Assembly (NCBI GenBank): GCA_947501265.1
Contig: CANMVY010000002.1
Coordinates: 147,048-211,047, forward strand
DNA length: 64,000 bases
Source: Bacteroidota bacterium
GTDB taxonomy: Bacteria; Bacteroidota; Bacteroidia; UBA7662; CANHCV01
Reading direction: 5' to 3'
The notes under the pieces were generated by a model. The model was not told where the DNA came from. It worked only from the letters and a program-made list of their open reading frames with translations, and ran no database searches. Shown in pieces: positions 14,590-25,676 of this stretch. Position numbers and translations under genes: made by a program. Numbering within the stretch: the stretch's first letter is position 1; every line of letters starts with the position of its first letter.

Positions 14590-16725
14590 ATGATACAAGC
14601 TGTGGTTAAAAAGGGACGTGTTATTGGTGAACGTGTTCCTACTCCTTTGGTTTCAGATGGTTGTTTATTGATTAAAGTGGTGAATTCCTGCATTTCTGCT
14701 GGCACTGAAATGGCCGGCGTGAATGAATCGGGCAAATCCATCATTAAACGAGCCATGGAACAACCTGAACAAGTGAAGGAAGTTCTGCAGTTCATGAAAA
14801 CCAATGGCATTCAACGAACTTTGGCGAAAGTTAAAGGAGCATTGGATGGTGGTAAACCAACGGGATATTCCATTTCTGGGATTGTGATTGGATTAGGAGC
14901 CGGCGTTTCTGGATTTTCGGTGGGCGATTCGGTTGCTGCCGCCGGTGCTGGATTGGCCAATCACGCCGAATACGTGGATGTGCCCGTTAACTTGGTCATG
15001 AAAATGCCTCAGGGCATGGACCACCAAAAGGCCAGCACCGTTACCTTAGGCGGCATTGCCATGCAAGGCGTACGCAGAGCTGATTTGCGCTTGGGGGAAG
15101 TTTGTGTCGTGGTGGGCGCCGGAATTCTTGGATTATTGGCGCAACAAATGCTTCAGCTTTCTGGGGTAAGAACCATTGTTACCGATTTAGATCCCTCCCG
15201 ATTAGACATTGCTAAAAAATTAGGAGCTGAACGCATCGTTAATCCGGCCAGCGAAGACGTTACGGCTGTGATTAACTCTTTAACGGGTGGACATGGAGCC
15301 GATGCGGTTTTGTTTACCGCGGCAACGTATTCGTCGGAACCCCTTTCCACCGCCTTCAAAATGTGCAAGAAGAAAGGACGCGTGGTGTTGGTAGGCGTTT
15401 CGGGCATGGAAATCAAACGAGGAGATATTTACGCGAAAGAACTCGACTTCCTTATTTCAACCTCGTATGGTCCCGGACGTTACGACGCCAATTATGAGGA
15501 AAAGGGATTGGATTATCCGTTCTCTTACGTTCGTTGGACCGAAAATCGAAACATGACCGAGTATTTGCGTTTGGTTCATGAAAGTAAAATTGATTTATCG
15601 TTGCTCATCGATGCGGTTTTTCCGATCGAACAAGTTGAAGAGGCTTTTACGGCTCTCAATTCGGAGGGGAAAAAACCGATCATGACGTTGTTGGATTACG
15701 GAAAAGATGGTATTGAATCGTTTCTTACTAAAAATGCAGATGAGAAACGAATTTCCATCAACACTCGGCCAACGAATGCTTCCAAAATTCGGGTTGCGAT
15801 TGCCGGGGTTGGCGGATTTGCAACGGGGATGCACCTCCCGAACCTAGCAAGCCTTTCCAATCAGTTTGAAATTCGAGCCATTTACAACCGAAGCGGACAA
15901 AAGGCAAAAGCCGTTGGAAATCAATATCAAGTAGCTTATGCCACTTCCGACTATCAGGAGTTGTGCAACGATGCCGATTTAGATTTAATCATGATTTGTA
16001 CCCGCCACGGCAATCACGCCGAATTGGCTTTGCAGGCATTGAAGGCGGGAAAACATGTTTTTGTTGAAAAGCCTTTGGCCATAAATCCTGAGCAACTGGA
16101 AGGAATTAAAGATTTCTATGCAGATGGAACGGAAAATAAACCGGTTTTGATGACCGGTTTCAATCGCCGATTTTCTACCTACGCTCAGGAAATGAAAAAA
16201 GTAACGTGCAAGAGAAGCAATCCATTGCTCATGCATTACCGCATGAACGCCGGTTTTATCCCGTACGATCACTGGACCCACGATGACGGCGGAAGAATCA
16301 TTGGAGAAGCTTGCCACATCATCGATTTAATGACCTTCTTCACGGAAAGCAAGGTTGTTTCAGCGCATTTCGAAGGACTTTCTGGAAATGAGCGCGTTCG
16401 CAAAACAGATAATGTGAGCATGCTTTTGAAATACGAAGACGGCTCGATTGCTCACATCGATTATTTTGGAACGGGATCGAAACAATTGAGCAAGGAATAC
16501 TTAGAAATTCACTTCGACGATCAGAGTTTGGTGATGGACGATTACAAATCGTTAAAAGGTTATGGAGTGAAATTGAAGGCGATTCAAAGTTCCATTTCTG
16601 AAAAAGGACAAAAAGAGGAACTAAACTTCTTGTACCAGACTTTGAAGGAAGGTGGCCCTTGGCCCATTGCCCTTTGGGACATGATTCAAACCACCGAAAT
16701 TACCTTTGAAGCAGTAAAAGAATAA
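14590..16725 (+). CDS. Two-domain oxidoreductase: zinc-type alcohol dehydrogenase plus Gfo/Idh/MocA domain
   Basis: A 711-residue fusion. Residues 1-about 385 are a medium-chain dehydrogenase/reductase (SAGTEMAGV, VVGAGILGLLAQQM as the NAD(P) Rossmann motif, GGHGADAVLFTA). Residues about 400-711 are a Gfo/Idh/MocA oxidoreductase (VAIAGVGGFATGMHLPNL, HVFVEKPLAI with the Lys-Pro of the family, GGRIIGEACHIID). Such bi-domain oxidoreductases usually sit in polysaccharide or capsule clusters and act on sugar derivatives; here no glycosyltransferases are near, so the substrate is open. The stop is two bases before the TauE start. Confidence 0.9.
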   Translation: MIQAVVKKGRVIGERVPTPLVSDGCLLIKVVNSCISAGTEMAGVNESGKSIIKRAMEQPEQVKEVLQFMKTNGIQRTLAKVKGALDGGKPTGYSISGIVIGLGAGVSGFSVGDSVAAAGAGLANHAEYVDVPVNLVMKMPQGMDHQKASTVTLGGIAMQGVRRADLRLGEVCVVVGAGILGLLAQQMLQLSGVRTIVTDLDPSRLDIAKKLGAERIVNPASEDVTAVINSLTGGHGADAVLFTAATYSSEPLSTAFKMCKKKGRVVLVGVSGMEIKRGDIYAKELDFLISTSYGPGRYDANYEEKGLDYPFSYVRWTENRNMTEYLRLVHESKIDLSLLIDAVFPIEQVEEAFTALNSEGKKPIMTLLDYGKDGIESFLTKNADEKRISINTRPTNASKIRVAIAGVGGFATGMHLPNLASLSNQFEIRAIYNRSGQKAKAVGNQYQVAYATSDYQELCNDADLDLIMICTRHGNHAELALQALKAGKHVFVEKPLAINPEQLEGIKDFYADGTENKPVLMTGFNRRFSTYAQEMKKVTCKRSNPLLMHYRMNAGFIPYDHWTHDDGGRIIGEACHIIDLMTFFTESKVVSAHFEGLSGNERVRKTDNVSMLLKYEDGSIAHIDYFGTGSKQLSKEYLEIHFDDQSLVMDDYKSLKGYGVKLKAIQSSISEKGQKEELNFLYQTLKEGGPWPIALWDMIQTTEITFEAVKE

Positions 16726-16727
16726 AC

Positions 16728-17540
16728 ATGGAAATCCTCGGTTACGCCCTCGCCCTTTTGATCGGATTAAGTCTCGGACTCATTGGCGGGGGCGGATCCA
16801 TTTTAGCTCTTCCTGTTTTGGTTTATATTTTAGGCGTTCCAGAAATGGAGGCTACCTCCTACTCTTTTTTTGTGATTGGATTATCGGCTTGGGTAGGGAC
16901 GTTTCAAAAAATATTCGAAAAATTAATCCATTACAAATCTGCGATAATCTTTGGAATTCCCTCCATTATCTCGGTTTATTTCTCTCGTTGGTACATTCTT
17001 CCTAATATTCCATCCAAGGTTCCCATGCTTGGTTTAGAAATTGAAAAAGAACAATTATTGATGCTATTTTTCTCTTTGATCATGATTTTCGCAGGATTGA
17101 GCACCATCAAAAAAAGAAAGAATCACCATCATCATGATGAAGTTGCTCTAAATCACCATCACCACCTTCATCCAAACCGTTGGGCATTACTCTCCGTTTT
17201 CGGATTAGGGGAAGGGATTTTAACGGGTATGGTTGGTGCCGGAGGCGGATTTTTAATCATCCCCATTCTCCTTTTAGTTGGGAAATTACATACCAAGAAA
17301 GCCATGGCAACCTCCCTTTTTATCATTGCCGTCAAATCAAGTCTGGGATTTTTAGGAGATCTCACCCGCTTTCATCCCAATTGGTGGATTATTCTTCCAT
17401 TTGCAGGAATATCCATTGTAGGAATTTTTATTGGCGATTATTTTGCCTTAAAAATCAAGGGGAAAATTCTGAAAACCATTTTTTCATTTTTCCTGATTTT
17501 ACTTGGGATCACTATTTTTGTGATTGAACTTCTTTCTTGA
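16728..17540 (+). CDS. TauE/SafE family membrane exporter with His-rich loop
   Basis: A 270-residue polytopic protein of the TauE/SafE (sulfite/sulfonate exporter) family, with the duplicated signatures GLIGGGGSILALPVL near residue 20 and MVGAGGGFLIIPILLL near residue 170. About eight transmembrane helices are predicted. The central loop at residues about 132-152 is unusually rich in histidine (two HHHH blocks), which suggests metal binding. It is coupled to the multihaem cytochrome gene by a TGATG overlap, which points to export or handling of a sulfur compound together with electron transfer. The substrate is inferred from the family only. Confidence 0.9.
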   Translation: MEILGYALALLIGLSLGLIGGGGSILALPVLVYILGVPEMEATSYSFFVIGLSAWVGTFQKIFEKLIHYKSAIIFGIPSIISVYFSRWYILPNIPSKVPMLGLEIEKEQLLMLFFSLIMIFAGLSTIKKRKNHHHHDEVALNHHHHLHPNRWALLSVFGLGEGILTGMVGAGGGFLIIPILLLVGKLHTKKAMATSLFIIAVKSSLGFLGDLTRFHPNWWIILPFAGISIVGIFIGDYFALKIKGKILKTIFSFFLILLGITIFVIELLS

Positions 17541-19450
17541 TGAAAAAAAGTATTTGGATTTGGTGTTTATTGGCTGTTGGACTTTTTTTCCTTTGGAATT
17601 GCAATAACCAAAGCCAAGAAACCTCTTCAAAACCGAACAACTCTTCTCCTTGGTTAAACATTCACGACACCGTTAACTACGTTGGAATGGCCAAATGCGC
17701 CATGTGCCACGATACCATTCGCCACACCTTTGTTCATACCGGCATGGGGCAATCCTTTGATACTGCTTCCTTTGAAAAATCCGCCGCCGATTACCATCAC
17801 CCCATCATTTACGACAAAACCGTAAACTTTTATTACCAAGCCTTCAAATCGAACGGAAGCATTTTCATGCGAGAATTCCGACTTGAAGGACGGGATACCG
17901 TTCACAATCGGGTTGAAAAAATTGATTATATCGTAGGTTCTGGCCAACACACCAACAGTCACCTCAGCAGTACTAATGGGTATTTGTACCAAATGCCGAT
18001 GACGTTTTATACCCAACAGAAAAAATGGGATTTACCCCCCGGATTCGAAAACGGAAACAACAGTCGATTTTCAAGAATTCTAAACTCAGAATGCATTTCC
18101 TGCCACAATAGTTTACCCGAAATGGATGGTGGAAGTGAAAACAAATTCACCTTCATGCCCAAAGGCATTTCCTGCGAGCGATGCCACGGCCCCGGAGAAC
18201 TTCACGTGCATGAAAAATTGAAAGGTGTTTTGGTAGATACCAAAAAAGACACCGATTTCACCATTGTAAATCCGAAAAAATTATCGTTCGATTTGCAAGT
18301 TAGCCTTTGTCAACGATGCCATTTGCAAGGAAATGCGGTATTAAAGCCGGGAAAATCCTTTTTCGATTTTCGTCCTGGTATGGCTTTAAGTGATGTGATG
18401 AGTGTTTTTCTTCCCCGATACGAAAACGACCCTTCCTTCATCATGGCTTCACATGCCGATCGCATGACGCAGAGCAAGTGCTTTACCAAATCGGGGAAAC
18501 TTACATGCATTACCTGCCATAACCCGCACGTTAGCGTGAAGGTGACTGGGAAACAAGCCTTCAACGATGCTTGTAATTCCTGCCATACGACTTCCAATAA
18601 GCACCTTTGCACCAAGGCAGGAATCACTGCTCAATCGAATTGCGTGAGTTGTCACATGCCCAGAAGCGGAACGAAAGACATTCCCCACGTGACCGTTCAC
18701 GACCATTACATTCGGAAACCTGAGGCCAAAACAAAAGTTACGGGTGAAAAACGTTTTATTGGCCTGGCTTCGATCAACGAAAAGAATCCTTCGGCTCTCA
18801 CAATGGCCAAGGCCTACGGTCAATTTTTTGAACGGTTCGACAATGGTAAAATTCAACATTTAGATAGTGCATTCCATTATTTGAAATTGGTGAAAGTGAG
18901 AGATTCTGAATATTGGAAAACCAGTGTTTATTTGAATTTCATGAAAGGTAATTTTTCTGAAGTTTTGGAAGCTGGCAATCGATTAGGAGTGGGGAATTGG
19001 GATGCATGGACTGCTTACAGAATGGGAGAAACTCAACATGAAATGGGCATGCTTTCCGAGGCAGTTGGGTCGTTGAAAATGGCCGTAAAACGGCAGCCGA
19101 GGAATTTAGAATTTCAGAATAAACTTGCAGCCTATTTAATGGAGAGTCAGGATTTTGCATCCGCAAGGAAAACCTTGGAATGGATTATTCAGGAAAACCC
19201 AAAGGAGGTTCAGGCATGGAATAATCTCGGGTTTTTACTTCTCCAAAGCGGTAACGGAGCAAAGGCCGGAGACTGTTATCGAAAAGCTTTGGCTTTGGAT
19301 CCCGATTACGAGCCGTTGTTGATGAATTGGGCTGGATACTGTTTGTATCAGGGGAATATACCAGAGGCGAAAAAGTTCATTTCGAAAATTCTGAAAAGGA
19401 ATCCTCAAAATGAACAAGCAAAATCGGTTCTGGAGCAATTAAAATCCTAA
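17540..19450 (+). CDS. Seven-haem c-type cytochrome with C-terminal TPR domain
   Basis: A 636-residue exported protein. Seven CxxCH haem-binding motifs occur at residues 53, 185, 212, 257, 323, 345 and 368 (CAMCH, CISCH, CERCH, CQRCH, CITCH, CNSCH, CVSCH). From about residue 430 the sequence becomes tetratricopeptide repeats (for example AWNNLGFLLLQSGNGAKAGD). The N terminus has a hydrophobic segment ending in LWNC, so Cys21 may be lipidated, although the lipobox is imperfect. The architecture resembles cytochrome c554-like/TPR proteins found in Bacteroidota and Planctomycetes. ATG at 17540 overlaps the TauE stop; a TTG one codon earlier is less likely. It probably carries or delivers electrons in the periplasm; the donor and acceptor are unknown. 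Confidence 0.9.
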   Translation: MKKSIWIWCLLAVGLFFLWNCNNQSQETSSKPNNSSPWLNIHDTVNYVGMAKCAMCHDTIRHTFVHTGMGQSFDTASFEKSAADYHHPIIYDKTVNFYYQAFKSNGSIFMREFRLEGRDTVHNRVEKIDYIVGSGQHTNSHLSSTNGYLYQMPMTFYTQQKKWDLPPGFENGNNSRFSRILNSECISCHNSLPEMDGGSENKFTFMPKGISCERCHGPGELHVHEKLKGVLVDTKKDTDFTIVNPKKLSFDLQVSLCQRCHLQGNAVLKPGKSFFDFRPGMALSDVMSVFLPRYENDPSFIMASHADRMTQSKCFTKSGKLTCITCHNPHVSVKVTGKQAFNDACNSCHTTSNKHLCTKAGITAQSNCVSCHMPRSGTKDIPHVTVHDHYIRKPEAKTKVTGEKRFIGLASINEKNPSALTMAKAYGQFFERFDNGKIQHLDSAFHYLKLVKVRDSEYWKTSVYLNFMKGNFSEVLEAGNRLGVGNWDAWTAYRMGETQHEMGMLSEAVGSLKMAVKRQPRNLEFQNKLAAYLMESQDFASARKTLEWIIQENPKEVQAWNNLGFLLLQSGNGAKAGDCYRKALALDPDYEPLLMNWAGYCLYQGNIPEAKKFISKILKRNPQNEQAKSVLEQLKS

Positions 19451-19480: not shown

Positions 19481-19488
19481 TATTTTTG
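19481..19488 (+). promoter_or_regulatory. -7 promoter element upstream of the DUF2809 gene
   Basis: TATTTTTG matches TAnnTTTG exactly. It covers the first possible TTG start (19486), which favours the later TTG at 19507 as the real start. Confidence 0.6.
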
Positions 19489-19506
19489 GCAAAAGAATCC
19501 ACCTTT

Positions 19507-19899
19507 TTGAAACACCGTCATCCCAAATATCAGATTCTCTTTTTCATCGTTGCCTTATTGTTTGGCTTAAGCGTTCGAAATTCGGAGCCGCATCTGCCCT
19601 ACTATTTAAGTTTAATAGGGCCCGATATGATATGGGCTGGTATGGTGTTTTTGGGATTTGGCATTTTATTCCCCAAAACAAATACATTAACCATCGGAAT
19701 TTATTCCCTCTTATTTGCTTTCGGTATTGAATTAAGTCAGCTTTATCAAGCTCCTTGGATTCAAGACATTAGGTCCTACAAATGGGGTGGATTAATTCTT
19801 GGTCATGGTTTTCTGTGGAGCGATTTATTGGCCTATTCGATGGGGATTGCTCTCCTTGCATTTTTAGATGATCGATTCATCTACCGCGTCAAGAAATAA
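19507..19899 (+). CDS. DUF2809 family membrane protein
   Basis: About 130 residues with four predicted transmembrane helices. The family block FGIELSQLYQAPW, then GGLILGHGFLWSDLLAY, is clearly recognisable. Function unknown. There is no ATG near the start; TTG at 19507 (followed by KHRHPKYQ) was chosen because the alternative TTG at 19486 lies within a -7 promoter element. It precedes the P450 operon by 47 bases, and whether it belongs to it cannot be told from sequence. Confidence 0.82.
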   Translation: MKHRHPKYQILFFIVALLFGLSVRNSEPHLPYYLSLIGPDMIWAGMVFLGFGILFPKTNTLTIGIYSLLFAFGIELSQLYQAPWIQDIRSYKWGGLILGHGFLWSDLLAYSMGIALLAFLDDRFIYRVKK

Positions 19900-19946: not shown

Positions 19947-21293
19947 ATGAAAAAGATATTTCAACCCATGGCATCCGGGAAAAAGCCATTTATTGGTCAT
20001 TTCTTAGCTTTTCGTAAAAATCCATTTGCCTTTTTTCAACAACATACTACCGAACAAAAAGATCTTTTTTGGTTCGATTTATTGAGCAGAAAAATTCTGG
20101 TTCTTAATCATCCAGAAGCTGTAAAACATGTCTTGATTAACAAAGCAAAAATCTATTCGCGAAAACCGACTTACCATTTTTTGGTGGAATTATTGGGCGA
20201 AGGATTGCTGACCACCGAAGGCGATATTTGGAAACAAAAGCGACGTTTAGCCCAACCGTTTTTCACCAAAGAACAAATGGATGGATTATTCGGTATCATG
20301 GAACATTCTGCGAAGACTTTTTGGGATGATTTTCAACTTCACCAAACGTTTAATTTGGAAGAGGAAATGAATCACCTCGCCTTGGTCATGCTCACCGATT
20401 CCATTTTGCAGGCGGAAATGGATTTCCATTTCCATGACATTAAGGAACACTTGCACATTGCGTTGGAATACCTTACCAAAAACCGATTCAATGCTTTTAA
20501 ATGGCAAAAAAAGCTTCCTTCAAAAATCAAAACCAAAGGAAGAAACAGCATTTCAGAATTGAAAAAAATCGTTGGACAAATCATCGAACATCGAAAAGAA
20601 TCAACCCATGAGCACCATGATTTATTGGCCATGTACATGTCCACTTCAGATGCAGAAACGGGAAAAACGCTTCAAGCCGATGAAATCCTCGATGAAGTAA
20701 TGACCATGTTTGTAGCGGGGCACGATACCACCTCGGTGGTCTTAACATGGACCCTTGTATTATTGCACCAACATCCAGAATCACTTCAAAAAGTTCGACA
20801 AGAGATCGATGAAAACTATCACGGCCAACCCGTGAACAATGAAGAATTAAAGAAATTCTCGTATTTAAAAATGTGCATCAACGAATCCATGCGTTTGTAT
20901 CCGCCCGTTTGGAGTTATGGTCGCAAATCGATGGAAGAAGGTGAAATCATGGGAATCCCTATTCCCGAAGGTAGCAATGTGAATATCCCCGTTTTATTCC
21001 TCCATCGAAATCCCAGTTATTGGGAAAAACCAACGGAGTTCTATCCAGAACATTTCGAAGATGAAGCCGTAAAACAACGGGATAAATTGGCCTATATTCC
21101 GTTTAGTGCAGGCCAACACCGATGCATTGGCGAATACTTCGCCTTGGTGGAAGTTCAGATGGCATTGATTCACCTCATCAAAAATTATGATTTTCGGATC
21201 ACTTTACCCCCAAAAATTGAATTGGATTTATTGGTAACCATCAAACCCAAATATCCCATTTCCTTTGAACTTTCCCCAAAAACAACGGCATGA
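19947..21293 (+). CDS. Cytochrome P450 monooxygenase
   Basis: A 448-residue P450 with all core motifs: I-helix oxygen-activation motif AGHDTT (257-262), K-helix ExxR as ESMR (313-316) and haem loop FSAGQHRCIG (386-395) with Cys393 as axial ligand. No fused reductase domain and no ferredoxin gene lie beside it, so electrons must come from elsewhere. The I-helix and haem-loop style resembles the fatty-acid/CYP4-like bacterial P450s, but the substrate is not deducible. It is the first of four genes joined by 4-base overlaps; the stop overlaps the acyltransferase start (ATGA at 21290-21293). Confidence 0.95.
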   Translation: MKKIFQPMASGKKPFIGHFLAFRKNPFAFFQQHTTEQKDLFWFDLLSRKILVLNHPEAVKHVLINKAKIYSRKPTYHFLVELLGEGLLTTEGDIWKQKRRLAQPFFTKEQMDGLFGIMEHSAKTFWDDFQLHQTFNLEEEMNHLALVMLTDSILQAEMDFHFHDIKEHLHIALEYLTKNRFNAFKWQKKLPSKIKTKGRNSISELKKIVGQIIEHRKESTHEHHDLLAMYMSTSDAETGKTLQADEILDEVMTMFVAGHDTTSVVLTWTLVLLHQHPESLQKVRQEIDENYHGQPVNNEELKKFSYLKMCINESMRLYPPVWSYGRKSMEEGEIMGIPIPEGSNVNIPVLFLHRNPSYWEKPTEFYPEHFEDEAVKQRDKLAYIPFSAGQHRCIGEYFALVEVQMALIHLIKNYDFRITLPPKIELDLLVTIKPKYPISFELSPKTTA

Positions 21294-22054
21294 GTTATAC
21301 CGAAAAACCTTGGCTCCCCTACCGCGATAGCATTGTCGATTTCCTCAAATTAGGAGGGGAACGAAACATGGCTCACGCTAATTTTGAAGTAGAAATCAGC
21401 AAAATGACCGAGGCGATTGCCCAAAAGAAATTAAAGGTGCATTCGGGCATTTCACAATTGGCTTACTTGCTCTGGTGTTATGGTCAGGCCGTAAAAAAAC
21501 ACCCGGAGATGCAGGGAATAAAAAAAGGGAAAAAACTCATCATTTTCGACGATGTGGATCTTTCAATGATTTTTGAAAAGGAAACACCTACGGGAATCAA
21601 GGTTCCGGTGCCTTACATTTTCAGAGCTATTCAAAACAAATCTTTCGATGAAATCTTGGAAGAGTTTAAAAAAGCAGAAGGGATGTCGTTGGAGCAGCTA
21701 AACATTCGTAAAAAAAGCAAGTTTTTTCAAATGCTTCCTTCTGGTTTACGGCAATGGATTTTAAAACGTGCCCTTTCGAATCCGCATAAATGGAAAGAAG
21801 CGTTGGGCACGGTAGCATTTACAACGCTCGGACTCCTCATCCGAAATCGAAAATTTTGGCCCATACCCATTGGTCCGTACGGACTCATGATGGCGGCGGG
21901 CAGTTCCTATTCCGTTCAAGATATTAACGGGAAACGGACTTATTTGTGCATGGTGGTTCATTTCGATCACAACTTGGTGGATGGTGCTCCCGCCGTTCGC
22001 TTTGGAAAAACATTCATGAACCTTATTGAAAGCGCTGAAGGATTAACGTCATGA
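21290..22054 (+). CDS. Stand-alone 2-oxoacid dehydrogenase-type (E2/CAT fold) acyltransferase
   Basis: A 254-residue protein equal to just the catalytic domain of lipoamide acyltransferases. It has no lipoyl or E3-binding domain. The catalytic HxxxDG motif is present as HFDHNLVDGAP (His227, Asp231), and the substrate-channel region KVPVPYI resembles the E2 family. Without a lipoyl domain it probably transfers an acyl group from CoA or another thioester to a small molecule, as chloramphenicol acetyltransferases do. It is embedded between the P450 and the hydroxylase::GH3 fusion with 4-base overlaps on both sides, so it most likely acts in the same pathway. Confidence 0.85.
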   Translation: MSYTEKPWLPYRDSIVDFLKLGGERNMAHANFEVEISKMTEAIAQKKLKVHSGISQLAYLLWCYGQAVKKHPEMQGIKKGKKLIIFDDVDLSMIFEKETPTGIKVPVPYIFRAIQNKSFDEILEEFKKAEGMSLEQLNIRKKSKFFQMLPSGLRQWILKRALSNPHKWKEALGTVAFTTLGLLIRNRKFWPIPIGPYGLMMAAGSSYSVQDINGKRTYLCMVVHFDHNLVDGAPAVRFGKTFMNLIESAEGLTS

Positions 22055-24597
22055 AAAACGAAAACATAAAAGCGCTCTTATCGTGGGGACTTTACCCCAT
22101 CACCTTTTTGGGTGCAGCATTTCTATTCGTTTTCCTCTTCAATCTCAATCCCAAATACCTTGAATTTGCCACCACCCTTCCAGTCCTATTATCCATCTTG
22201 ATCATCCATTGGGGAGAAAAATTTCTTCCTTTTCGAAACGAGTGGATGCCCAAAAAAGAAGACTATCAAACCGATGGATGGTATTTGATTTTGGTGCAAA
22301 CCATTCTTCCCAAGGTTTTTACTTTTTTACTGGCAAGCGTTTTTCTCAAATTCATACCCGAATTAACACCCCAATCCATTTGGCCACATCATTGGAACAT
22401 ATGGGCACAAGTTCTTTTAGTGACCCTCATTTCCGATTTTCTCAGGTATTGGCTTCACCGATTAAGTCATACCGTTCCATTCTTTTGGCGATTCCATGCC
22501 GTTCACCATTCGGTTGAAAAACTATATTGGCTCAATACCAGTCGTTTTCATCCCGTTGAAAAACTATTTCAATTTATTTTAGATGTTCTTCCCTTCCTCT
22601 TGTTGGGGGTTTCTAAAGAAGTGCTTGCCTTTCATTTGGTGTTGTACGGCGTTAACGGATTCTTCCAACACTGCAACATTCAGTTGAAGTTTGGTTGGCT
22701 GAATTACCTGATTTCGAGTTCCGATCTTCATCGCTGGCACCACGCCCGAGAGATTCATGAATCGAACAACAATTATGGAAATAACATCATTCTTTGGGAT
22801 CTTCTTTTTGGTTCTTATTACAATCCTCAAAAACCCATCAATGAAATTGGCCTCTTTAATCGCAACTATCCACAAGCATTCGATGGCCAATTAACGGCTC
22901 CATTCGTGAAACAACTCGATAAAAAACCCAAATTTCATCTCGGCCTACTGGACCTATTGATCAACAGAATCATGGATTTGAAGGTAAACCGATTAAAGAA
23001 AAATCTGCATCCTCCCTTTTTCGAACATTGCAAAAATCCCGATGTAGAGCAATGGAAGGTTCTTCAAAAATTCCTGAAACAAAATGCTTCTACGGAGCTT
23101 GGAAAAAAATATCAATATCAAAATATTCATTCCATTGAAGATTTTCAAAAAGCCGTACCGGTTCATGATTATGAGGCATTTCGAGAACTGATTTTACAGC
23201 AAATACATGAGCCAGAAAATCAGGTTTTTGTCGCTGAAAAGCTAATCCTTCTAAACAAAACCAGTGGAAGCACCAACACCCCCAAACTCATTCCAGTAAC
23301 CCAATCGGTTTTGGATGGTCTCAAATACAGTCAAAATTTATCCTTAAGTTTTCAGTACAATCTGGAACGAAAAGGATATTCCGGTAAAATTTTAGGTATC
23401 GTTAGTCCGGCGCAGGAACCGATTTCAGATTTACCTGTTCCCATCGGATCTGCGTCCGGGCATTTTTACAAGAACATGCCGAGAATGGTAAAAAACAAAT
23501 ACGTTGTTCCCCATTCTGTCTTTGAAATAGAAAACTTTGAGGACAAATACTACATCATCCTTCTCCTTGGTATTCAACATCAACATGTAACCTACATTGG
23601 TACCGCAAATCCATCTACCGTATTGAAATTGAACCAAATTTTAAACCTTAGAAAAAAGGATTTATTGCATGATTTGAAATCAAAAACCATTTCAACTTCG
23701 TCAGATATTCCAGCTAACATCCGTGCAAAAGTTCAAAAGAACCTAAAACCAACTTTAAGCCGATTAGAGGAGTTAGAAATGATTTTCCAACAAGATTCCA
23801 TTTCTTTTTCGGATATCTGGCCCTACCTGAGGTTGCTCAACACGTGGACTGGCGGTAGTTGTGGAATTGCACTCCATGCAGCAAAGGCCCTCATTCCGTC
23901 TGAAACAACGATTATTGATCCCGGATACCTTTCTAGTGAATTTCGAGGAAGCGTTACTTTGGATTTAAAAACCCAAGGAGGTGTTCCCACCTATTTTTTA
24001 AACTTCTTCGAATTTGTTGAGGAAGAGCTTTTTGAAAATGGGAAGATGGATTTCCTAACACTTGGGAAATTAGAAATTCACAAAAAGTATTATGTTTTTG
24101 TTACCACCCCATCGGGTTTGGTTCGCTACGCCATGAACGATATCGTTAAGGTGGTAGGATTTATCGATAAAATGCCATTGATTGTTTTTGTTCAAAAAGG
24201 AAATGGAATCACCAATATTACAGGAGAAAAATTGCATGAAGGACAGGTATTAACCGCTTTAAATCAGCTTCAGCTATCCTTGGCATTTGCTCAAGTTTTG
24301 GCCAATGAAGAAAAATCCCAATACGAAGCATACCTGGAATTTGAAAATCCGCCGCATGATTTGAAACAACTTGCCAATCAATTGGACGAGGCCATCGCCC
24401 GCAACAACTCCGAATATGCCGAGAAACGCAATAGCGGGCGACTTCATCCATTAATCATCTTTCCATTGAAAAATGGCACCTATGACCAAATAAAAAAAAT
24501 GGGCGTGAAAGCGGGGCAAAATGAATCTCAATTCAAAACCATCCTACTACAATACGCGTCGAAGTACACCATCCCCTTGCGAAATTATTTGGCATGA
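22051..24597 (+). CDS. Fusion of fatty-acid-hydroxylase/sterol-desaturase domain with GH3 acyl-adenylate/amide synthetase domain
   Basis: An 848-residue protein. Residues about 10-260 are a membrane di-iron fatty acid hydroxylase with its histidine clusters HRLSH (136-140), HAVHH (149-153), His167, His207 and HRWHH (227-231), between several transmembrane helices. Residues about 320-848 are a GH3 domain of the adenylate-forming superfamily: phosphate-binding NKTSGSTNTPKLIP (Thr404-Thr408), TYIGTANPS, LNTWTGGSCG, TTPSGLVRYAMNDIV (about 685-700) and GITNITGEKL. Plant GH3 enzymes adenylate carboxylic acids and join them to amino acids. The joining of hydroxylation and activation in one chain suggests a membrane-linked carboxylic or fatty acid substrate. 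Both ends overlap neighbouring genes by four bases. Confidence 0.9.
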   Translation: MKNENIKALLSWGLYPITFLGAAFLFVFLFNLNPKYLEFATTLPVLLSILIIHWGEKFLPFRNEWMPKKEDYQTDGWYLILVQTILPKVFTFLLASVFLKFIPELTPQSIWPHHWNIWAQVLLVTLISDFLRYWLHRLSHTVPFFWRFHAVHHSVEKLYWLNTSRFHPVEKLFQFILDVLPFLLLGVSKEVLAFHLVLYGVNGFFQHCNIQLKFGWLNYLISSSDLHRWHHAREIHESNNNYGNNIILWDLLFGSYYNPQKPINEIGLFNRNYPQAFDGQLTAPFVKQLDKKPKFHLGLLDLLINRIMDLKVNRLKKNLHPPFFEHCKNPDVEQWKVLQKFLKQNASTELGKKYQYQNIHSIEDFQKAVPVHDYEAFRELILQQIHEPENQVFVAEKLILLNKTSGSTNTPKLIPVTQSVLDGLKYSQNLSLSFQYNLERKGYSGKILGIVSPAQEPISDLPVPIGSASGHFYKNMPRMVKNKYVVPHSVFEIENFEDKYYIILLLGIQHQHVTYIGTANPSTVLKLNQILNLRKKDLLHDLKSKTISTSSDIPANIRAKVQKNLKPTLSRLEELEMIFQQDSISFSDIWPYLRLLNTWTGGSCGIALHAAKALIPSETTIIDPGYLSSEFRGSVTLDLKTQGGVPTYFLNFFEFVEEELFENGKMDFLTLGKLEIHKKYYVFVTTPSGLVRYAMNDIVKVVGFIDKMPLIVFVQKGNGITNITGEKLHEGQVLTALNQLQLSLAFAQVLANEEKSQYEAYLEFENPPHDLKQLANQLDEAIARNNSEYAEKRNSGRLHPLIIFPLKNGTYDQIKKMGVKAGQNESQFKTILLQYASKYTIPLRNYLA

Positions 24598-25676
24598 TTA
24601 CGAATTATTTGGTAGAAAACCTCGAAATCCCATTTCGAGTAGCCTTTAAACATCATTCGGCAACCCGTTCGGTAAGTCAAACCATTTTGGTTCGATTGGT
24701 TGGCGATGATTGGGATGGATGGGGCGAAAGTTGCCCTCGTGCTTACGTTTCTGGAGAATCGTGTGAATCGGCAACCCAACAAATTCATGCATGGTTAAAG
24801 CCGGGAATTCCTTTTTTCGATTTAGCTTCATGGAATGCTTTTTGCCAAGCGCACAAGGCGAGTATTGAAAATTATCCGGCAGCGTTTTGTGCGCTTGAAT
24901 TGGCTTTTTTTGACGGCTACAGCAAAAAATTACAAAGCCCGGTGTCCACCATTTTGGGATGGAAATCCCTAACCAATACCTTTAAATTTACTGCGGTTCT
25001 CGGCGATGGTTCCTTGGCTACCTTTCAATCCCTTGCCAAAGCCCACTTGGATTGGGGATTTACTTCGTTCAAGGTAAAAATATCTGGAAATCAAGATGCA
25101 GATTTCGAAAAACTCCGTTGGCTCATCGATCAAAATTCTAATTTATCCATTCGATTGGATGCAAACAATGGATTTTCATCCGTTGAGCAAGTCGTCGATT
25201 ACCTAGGTCGAATTCCAATTCGAATTGAGGCCTTGGAAGAACCATTGGAATCGAAATCACCCGATGATTTAATACAACTCATTCAACAAATTGACCAAGC
25301 AGTTATCCTGGATGAAATGGCCATTCATGAACAAGATTTGGACAAATATTCGAGTGTTTCTCCCCAAATTTGGATCAATCTAAGGGTTTCAAAAATGGGT
25401 GGTATTCAGTCAACCTATCGAATATTGAAGAAAGCAGAAAAACTCGGATACGGAATTGTGGTTGGTTCACAAGTGGGCGAGACTTCACTTTTGGGTCATG
25501 CCGGCTTATTGATTGCTCAACAAGTCGAGAATTTAATTGGCTTGGAGGGCGGTTATTCCGACCTTTTTTTACAGCAAGATCCTTTTGCGCCCCAAGTAAA
25601 ATTTGACTCCCACGGTGAATTCCATGGTGAGCAATTGGCTCAAACGTTGGGTTTCGGAAATCGAATCAGTTTTTAG
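24594..25676 (+). CDS. Enolase-superfamily enzyme (muconate lactonizing/dipeptide-epimerase subgroup)
   Basis: A 360-residue protein of the MLE subgroup. The catalytic KxK (FKVKIS, Lys160/Lys162), metal ligands Asp189 (RLDANNGF), Glu215 or Glu216 (LEEPLE) and Asp240 (ILDEM), and the second base Lys267 (VSKMGG) are all present. These allow alpha-proton abstraction next to a carboxylate. Ala-Glu dipeptide epimerases carry a C-terminal DxD for the peptide amino group; here that region reads GLEGGYSDL, so dipeptide epimerase activity is doubtful. O-succinylbenzoate synthase or a new epimerase/racemase are alternatives. Its start overlaps the fusion gene by ATGA, and its stop overlaps the stop of lepB on the other strand. 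Confidence 0.83.
   Translation: MITNYLVENLEIPFRVAFKHHSATRSVSQTILVRLVGDDWDGWGESCPRAYVSGESCESATQQIHAWLKPGIPFFDLASWNAFCQAHKASIENYPAAFCALELAFFDGYSKKLQSPVSTILGWKSLTNTFKFTAVLGDGSLATFQSLAKAHLDWGFTSFKVKISGNQDADFEKLRWLIDQNSNLSIRLDANNGFSSVEQVVDYLGRIPIRIEALEEPLESKSPDDLIQLIQQIDQAVILDEMAIHEQDLDKYSSVSPQIWINLRVSKMGGIQSTYRILKKAEKLGYGIVVGSQVGETSLLGHAGLLIAQQVENLIGLEGGYSDLFLQQDPFAPQVKFDSHGEFHGEQLAQTLGFGNRISF

Follow-up and report, generated by a model that had tools for sequence, protein, structure and literature searches.

What does a bacterial operon produce that combines a cytochrome P450, an E2-type acyltransferase, a membrane hydroxylase fused to a GH3 acyl-acid amido synthetase, and an enolase-superfamily enzyme? 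In 2025, a study described aminolipid synthesis that depends on a GH3-type enzyme, OlsH, which uses ATP to form N-acyl ornithine from ornithine and a free fatty acid (PMC12493201). According to the same study, almost 90% of bacterial GH3 matches occur in Bacteroidota, where production of N-acyl ornithine is thought unlikely and the functions of the GH3 homologues need study. We analyzed such an operon in a stretch of 64,000 nucleotides (the window) from a genome of 26 contigs and 2.33 Mb that is 99.99% complete and whose relatives in public collections are Bacteroidota MAGs. Our main reading, to which we assign a probability of roughly 0.55, is an ATP-dependent pathway of GH3 type that leads to an N-acyl amino-acid lipid (an aminolipid or lipoamino acid). 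The gene set represents a small, directly testable system for the role of bacterial GH3 proteins. From it, amide lipids can be predicted that may contain D-amino acids and could be sought in lipid surveys.

Organization of the operon

The operon consists of four intact open reading frames for five predicted enzyme activities, with the following features:

19947..21293, plus strand: cytochrome P450, 448 aa (PF00067, 1.3e-85), predicted acyl-chain hydroxylase
21290..21293, plus strand: ATGA stop/start overlap between the P450 and acyltransferase genes (sequence)
21290..22054, plus strand: stand-alone E2/CAT-fold acyltransferase, 254 aa (PF00198, 7.4e-12), predicted O-acyltransferase
22051..22054, plus strand: ATGA stop/start overlap between the acyltransferase and fusion genes (sequence)
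22051..24597, plus strand: FA_hydroxylase::GH3 fusion (PF04116, PF03321, PF23571, PF23572)
24594..24597, plus strand: ATGA stop/start overlap between the fusion and enolase genes (sequence)
24594..25676, plus strand: MLE-subgroup enolase-superfamily enzyme, 360 aa (PF13378, 3.5e-16), predicted N-acyl-amino-acid epimerase

Open reading frames and domain matches agreed with the preliminary description of the locus as regards the four families and the three overlaps at 21290, 22051, and 24594. That description had also taken the overlaps as a sign of one translationally coupled pathway, which the overlaps alone do not support. Exact 4-base overlaps occur at 9 of the 41 adjacent same-strand gene pairs in the window, six of them outside the operon, and are thus too ordinary there to be more than weak evidence for a pathway. 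The 3' end of the enolase gene shares four further bases (25673-25676) with the stop of a convergent signal-peptidase-like gene. With respect to recent transfer, the base composition was not unusual (GC content of 0.404 in the operon and 0.417 in the window).

Directly upstream of the operon lies a gene for a DUF2809 membrane protein (window positions 19486-19899), which is kept at this position only in the host genus. By eye, two further upstream regions were read as a multihaem-like protein with several CxxCH motifs and a repeat-like C-terminal region (17537-19450) and as a single open reading frame joining an alcohol-dehydrogenase-like to an oxidoreductase-like part (14590-16725).

Conservation and distribution of the gene cassette

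Other genomes were scanned with the GH3 alignment as query, using one genome per species. Eight loci were obtained with 46-99% identity, and the next matches did not exceed 26%. Seven of the eight encode the P450, the E2-type acyltransferase, the FA_hydroxylase::GH3 fusion, and the enolase in the same order; in one of these (L044) the contig stops inside the enolase gene, and in another (L048) the enolase gene starts three bases past the fusion. The eighth (L046, from genome G011) is a contig end with the GH3 part and the enolase only, again with a 4-base overlap. Genome searches added two cassettes of the same order. One, in G618, belongs to another class, related to the host only at the phylum level. 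The other, in G111, carries an additional gene of the leucine-carboxyl-methyltransferase family between acyltransferase and fusion. This inserted gene (L078, 8063-8956) has a 4-base overlap with the acyltransferase gene, and carboxyl methylation of the product by the encoded enzyme is possible.

Complete cassettes thus occur in seven lineages (the host genus, L047, L048, L049, L050/L051, G111, and G618), all of which have the fusion. Junctions in the other genomes measure -11 to +16 bases; where the extra gene is inserted, the distance is 879. At E 1e-10, the flanks of different lineages have no homologues in common except for one gene in L048 and L049, which lies upstream of the one cassette but downstream of the other; common flank homologues were found within the same-lineage pairs window/L045 and L050/L051. 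Identity between lineages is 42-64% for the P450, 39-79% for the acyltransferase, 41-66% for the hydroxylase, 40-62% for GH3, and 32-51% for the enolase. The distance matrices of the genes correlate across cassette lineages with r values of 0.78-0.96, uncorrected for shared descent. A gene order conserved in unrelated genomes with unrelated flanks exceeds chance and is strong evidence for a unit. To judge from these sequence comparisons, selection has kept the four genes together as a unit. The proposed coupling into one pathway is accordingly supported by the order and the fusion conserved in seven complete lineages, and homologues of the four genes proved to be neighbors in other genomes as well, as the preliminary description had led one to expect.

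The cassette is rare and was found in about 1% of the sampled genomes of the class. At E 1e-30, acyltransferase homologues occurred in 6 of 395 class genomes, and the four that matched at E 1e-100 or better were those in the cassette. In a draw from the phylum, the acyltransferase was present in 2 of 396 genomes and the fusion in the same two. Throughout these class and phylum searches, the cassette was the only place where close homologues of the acyltransferase or of the fusion turned up. Likewise, every enolase that matched at E 1e-90 or better lies within it, while the gene contexts of weaker kin (1e-36 to 1e-60) are different. The cassette is scattered in its occurrence (in the family of G111, one genome out of ten has it), which suggests that it has been transferred or lost as a single block.

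The hydroxylase-GH3 fusion protein

The fusion protein consists of an OlsE-like membrane hydroxylase (approximately residues 1-290) followed by a GH3 acyl-acid amido synthetase (approximately residues 300-848). PF04116 matches residues 122-255 (1.3e-29), and the histidines H136, H140, H149, H152, H153, H167, H207, H227, H230, and H231 are conserved. In PMC12493201 (title of its ref. 42) and PMC11631085, OlsE is described as an ornithine-lipid head-group hydroxylase that acts at C4. The hydroxylase part matches the OlsE model NF052566 over its full length (6e-59, 200 bits). It has the PF04116 domain with its histidine clusters, but it stays below the equivalog cut-off of 475 bits and, as a further difference from OlsE, is fused to a GH3 ligase. 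Against the full-length model, fused hydroxylases scored 177-200 bits, whereas four relatives from the class that stand alone reached 69-119 bits.

The N-terminal, central, and C-terminal GH3 domains were matched at 1.1e-58, 2.1e-15, and 4.8e-16. By comparison with the motifs given in PMC12493201, T404SGxT..PK412 (TSGST..PK), G625xxxSE630 (GYLSSE), and G689LxRYxMND697 are conserved. The three nucleotide-binding motifs are kept in eight copies. With these motifs and all three domains, the protein belongs to the GH3 acyl-acid amido synthetases in the broad sense. However, the OlsH model NF052613 was matched with only 65 bits, in two pieces. The range among the relatives (60-77 bits), far from the 620-bit cut-off, led us to reject an assignment as OlsH, and with this distance the ornithine specificity cannot be transferred. 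Three other GH3 proteins of the host reach 317-395 bits with the same model, far above the fused domain; their single-domain genes are located at L038 5592-7094 (host contig C2), L039 4869-6383 (host contig C4), and L040 4842-6389 (host contig C3). The closest solved structures of the fusion are plant GH3 proteins. An AlphaFold model of the whole fusion was of low confidence (pLDDT 63.6, pTM 0.50) and was left out of the interpretation.

The P450 and the E2-type acyltransferase

The P450 contains an I-helix motif (AGHDTT), ESMR, and a haem-binding motif (FSAGQHRCIG), with small variation among seven aligned copies. Its profile neighbors in the PDB span CYP46A1, CYP97-type enzymes, and CYP102, a range from which no substrate can be predicted; hydroxylation of an acyl chain is its putative role.

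In the acyltransferase, the catalytic H227xxxD231G232 is invariant in seven copies. The PF00198 match and the HxxxDG motif place it in the E2/CAT fold and are shared with the catalytic domain of 2-oxoacid dehydrogenase E2 and with CatA-like acyltransferases. In contrast to the E2 subunits, the protein is a single domain of 254 aa without lipoyl or E3-binding domain, and its neighbors are cassette genes rather than genes for E1 or E3, so it does not qualify as such a subunit. From CatA-like enzymes it is set apart by a weak match to NF040637 (25 bits, cut-off 250). A distant pair of E2-type acyltransferase and P450 genes with a 4-base overlap occurs in G129 (L079, C13, 6767-9788, minus strand), which is consistent with these two enzymes working together. 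After this pair come a panD-type gene for aspartate 1-decarboxylase and an unclassified gene of 182 aa, GNAT-like by eye; the locus may represent the same theme with beta-alanine.

The enolase-superfamily enzyme

Residues K160xK162, D189, E215-E216, D240, K267, and E318 are invariant in nine copies of the enolase. With the KxK motif, the sixth-strand lysine, and three metal-binding acids, the enzyme belongs by its residues to the MLE-subgroup racemases and epimerases. The best PDB profile match was 2p88, an N-succinyl-Arg/Lys racemase (4.7e-39). The AlphaFold model (pLDDT 90.5) was matched best by 1jpm, an L-Ala-D/L-Glu epimerase (Foldseek, TM 0.84). Fold, KxK, sixth-strand lysine, and metal ligands are common to 2p88 and the dipeptide epimerases 1jpm and 3jva, whereas identity in the structural alignments is about 20-23%, the gene context differs, and the cassette enzyme has its own invariant motifs RVSKxGG, QVGE, and EGxY. 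These nearest matches, the N-succinyl-Arg/Lys racemase and the dipeptide epimerases, act on N-acylated alpha-amino acids, and N-succinyl-amino-acid racemases work through a lysine pair (PMC8142540). The residues would also fit OSB synthase or beta-elimination chemistry. As for a role as the MenC of the host, which we rejected, a second enolase-superfamily gene adjoins a MenA-like (UbiA-type) gene on another contig, the names MenA and MenC being our own reading of these sequences.

Two large genomes contain enolase kin directly after a weakly GNAT-like gene of 250 aa (L104 7093-8990 and L105 7532-9686). The two GNAT-like genes are 34% identical to each other, their GNAT match is below the Pfam cut-off, and one of them has a 4-base overlap with the enolase relative. 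In Marivirga (L053, 9231-11545), a distant homologue of this gene (21% identity to the L105 copy) directly precedes a GH3 gene.

A putative pathway to an N-acyl amino-acid lipid

Two independent parts of the cassette suggest an N-acyl amino acid as the substrate class: the OlsE-like hydroxylase, joined with an amide ligase in one polypeptide, and the enolase, whose nearest matches act on N-acyl amino acids. Such a compound is probably also the type of product formed. This reading gains further support from the enolase kin behind weakly GNAT-like genes and from the leucine-carboxyl-methyltransferase-family gene in one lineage. In the proposed route, the GH3 domain would adenylate a free or P450-hydroxylated fatty acid and couple it to an amino acid via the alpha-amino group. 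A basic amino acid, for example ornithine or lysine, is the most likely partner; that the head group is indeed one of these two is rather doubtful. The OlsE-like membrane hydroxylase on the same polypeptide would hydroxylate the head group. The P450 would hydroxylate the acyl chain, and the E2-type enzyme would esterify the chain hydroxyl with a second acyl group, the role of OlsI in the OlsH pathway. Most simply, these two enzymes would stand in for the 3-hydroxyacyl precursor and the O-acyltransferase on which other aminolipid pathways rely; the chances of an O-acylated chain are a little short of even. With its two lysines, the enolase could take the proton off the alpha carbon of the N-acyl amino acid and put it back to give the D epimer, a step that we propose tentatively. 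The full scheme would have a single polypeptide that both amidates and hydroxylates the head group, a chain hydroxyl provided by the P450, inversion to the D form by the enolase, and as product an acyloxyacyl D-amino-acid lipid of the membrane or of signaling, encoded by a mobile cassette; in this detail it is somewhat unlikely to hold.

We also compared the distribution of the cassette with that of the canonical aminolipid N-acyltransferases. PF13444 (OlsB/OlsF-type acyltransferase) is absent from the host genus including the host genome, from G111, and from the L050 and L051 genomes; it is present in G011 and in the genomes of L047-L049, the L048 and L049 copies being of OlsF-like size (587-600 aa). 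Within the class, 92 of 149 genomes carry it. Presence and absence did not form a pattern of complementarity. As several carriers of the cassette also have PF13444, the cassette is not simply a substitute for ornithine-lipid synthesis.

Alternative products

The PF13444 data bear on one alternative, an ornithine or lysine lipid proper, of variant form, for which the GH3 domain would take the place of OlsH. The precedent of OlsH (PMC12493201), the OlsE-like character of the fused domain, and the lack of any PF13444 protein in a host genome of 99.99% completeness would agree with it. However, the GH3 domain is far under the OlsH cut-off and less OlsH-like than the three other GH3 proteins of the host, and PF13444 proteins also occur in the L048, L049, and G011 genomes, so that we consider this product unlikely. 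The conjugated acid might instead be a terpenoid, carotenoid, or aromatic acid. Plant GH3 enzymes conjugate hormone acids, and among solved structures the fusion is nearest to plant GH3s; the P450 profile, too, resembles CYP46A1 and CYP97-type enzymes. Yet the cassette includes no terpenoid gene and has no common flanks, and the family score marks the hydroxylase as OlsE-like, which makes such an acid very improbable. The preliminary description had envisaged an oxidized fatty or terpenoid acid converted to an amide or ester conjugate. Its amine conjugation is supported by the GH3 motifs, the OlsE-like fusion, and the racemase-like enolase, which together favor a lipoamino acid over a terpenoid.

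The enolase allows for a different outcome, a small diffusible N-acyl dehydroamino acid. A beta-hydroxyl introduced by the P450 or the hydroxylase would be O-acylated by the E2-type enzyme to become a leaving group, and elimination by the enolase would yield an alpha,beta double bond. Enolase-superfamily enzymes do perform beta-eliminations, dehydratase families are among the weak enolase matches, one cassette lineage has a methyltransferase, and N-acyl dehydrotyrosines are bacterial products (PMC12479983). The known loci for these compounds, however, carry NasY, ThiF-type, and nitroreductase genes instead (PMC12479983), the best enolase matches are epimerases and racemases, and the OlsE-like domain indicates a lipid head group. 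We regard this outcome as quite unlikely and favor the N-acyl amino-acid lipid.

Comparison with known aminolipid pathways

A literature search on GH3 with P450, acyltransferase, racemase, and lipoamino acid, whose coverage included few subscription papers, returned no description of the gene set and no characterized pathway with it, in agreement with the preliminary description. The closest system is the OlsH/OlsI/OlsG locus of Singulisphaera acidiphila (PMC12493201), in which a GH3-family amide enzyme is likewise located beside an O-acyltransferase and a head-group modifier. The O-acyltransferase is an alpha/beta hydrolase there and has the E2 fold in the cassette; as head-group modifier, the S. 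acidiphila locus has a methyltransferase, whereas the cassette has a fused hydroxylase. In addition, the cassette contains a P450 and an enolase, neither of which is reported from the S. acidiphila locus, and its GH3 sequence is far from OlsH. The cassette could thus be a variation on the theme of GH3-dependent aminolipid synthesis that follows a route not described before and leads to a new product.
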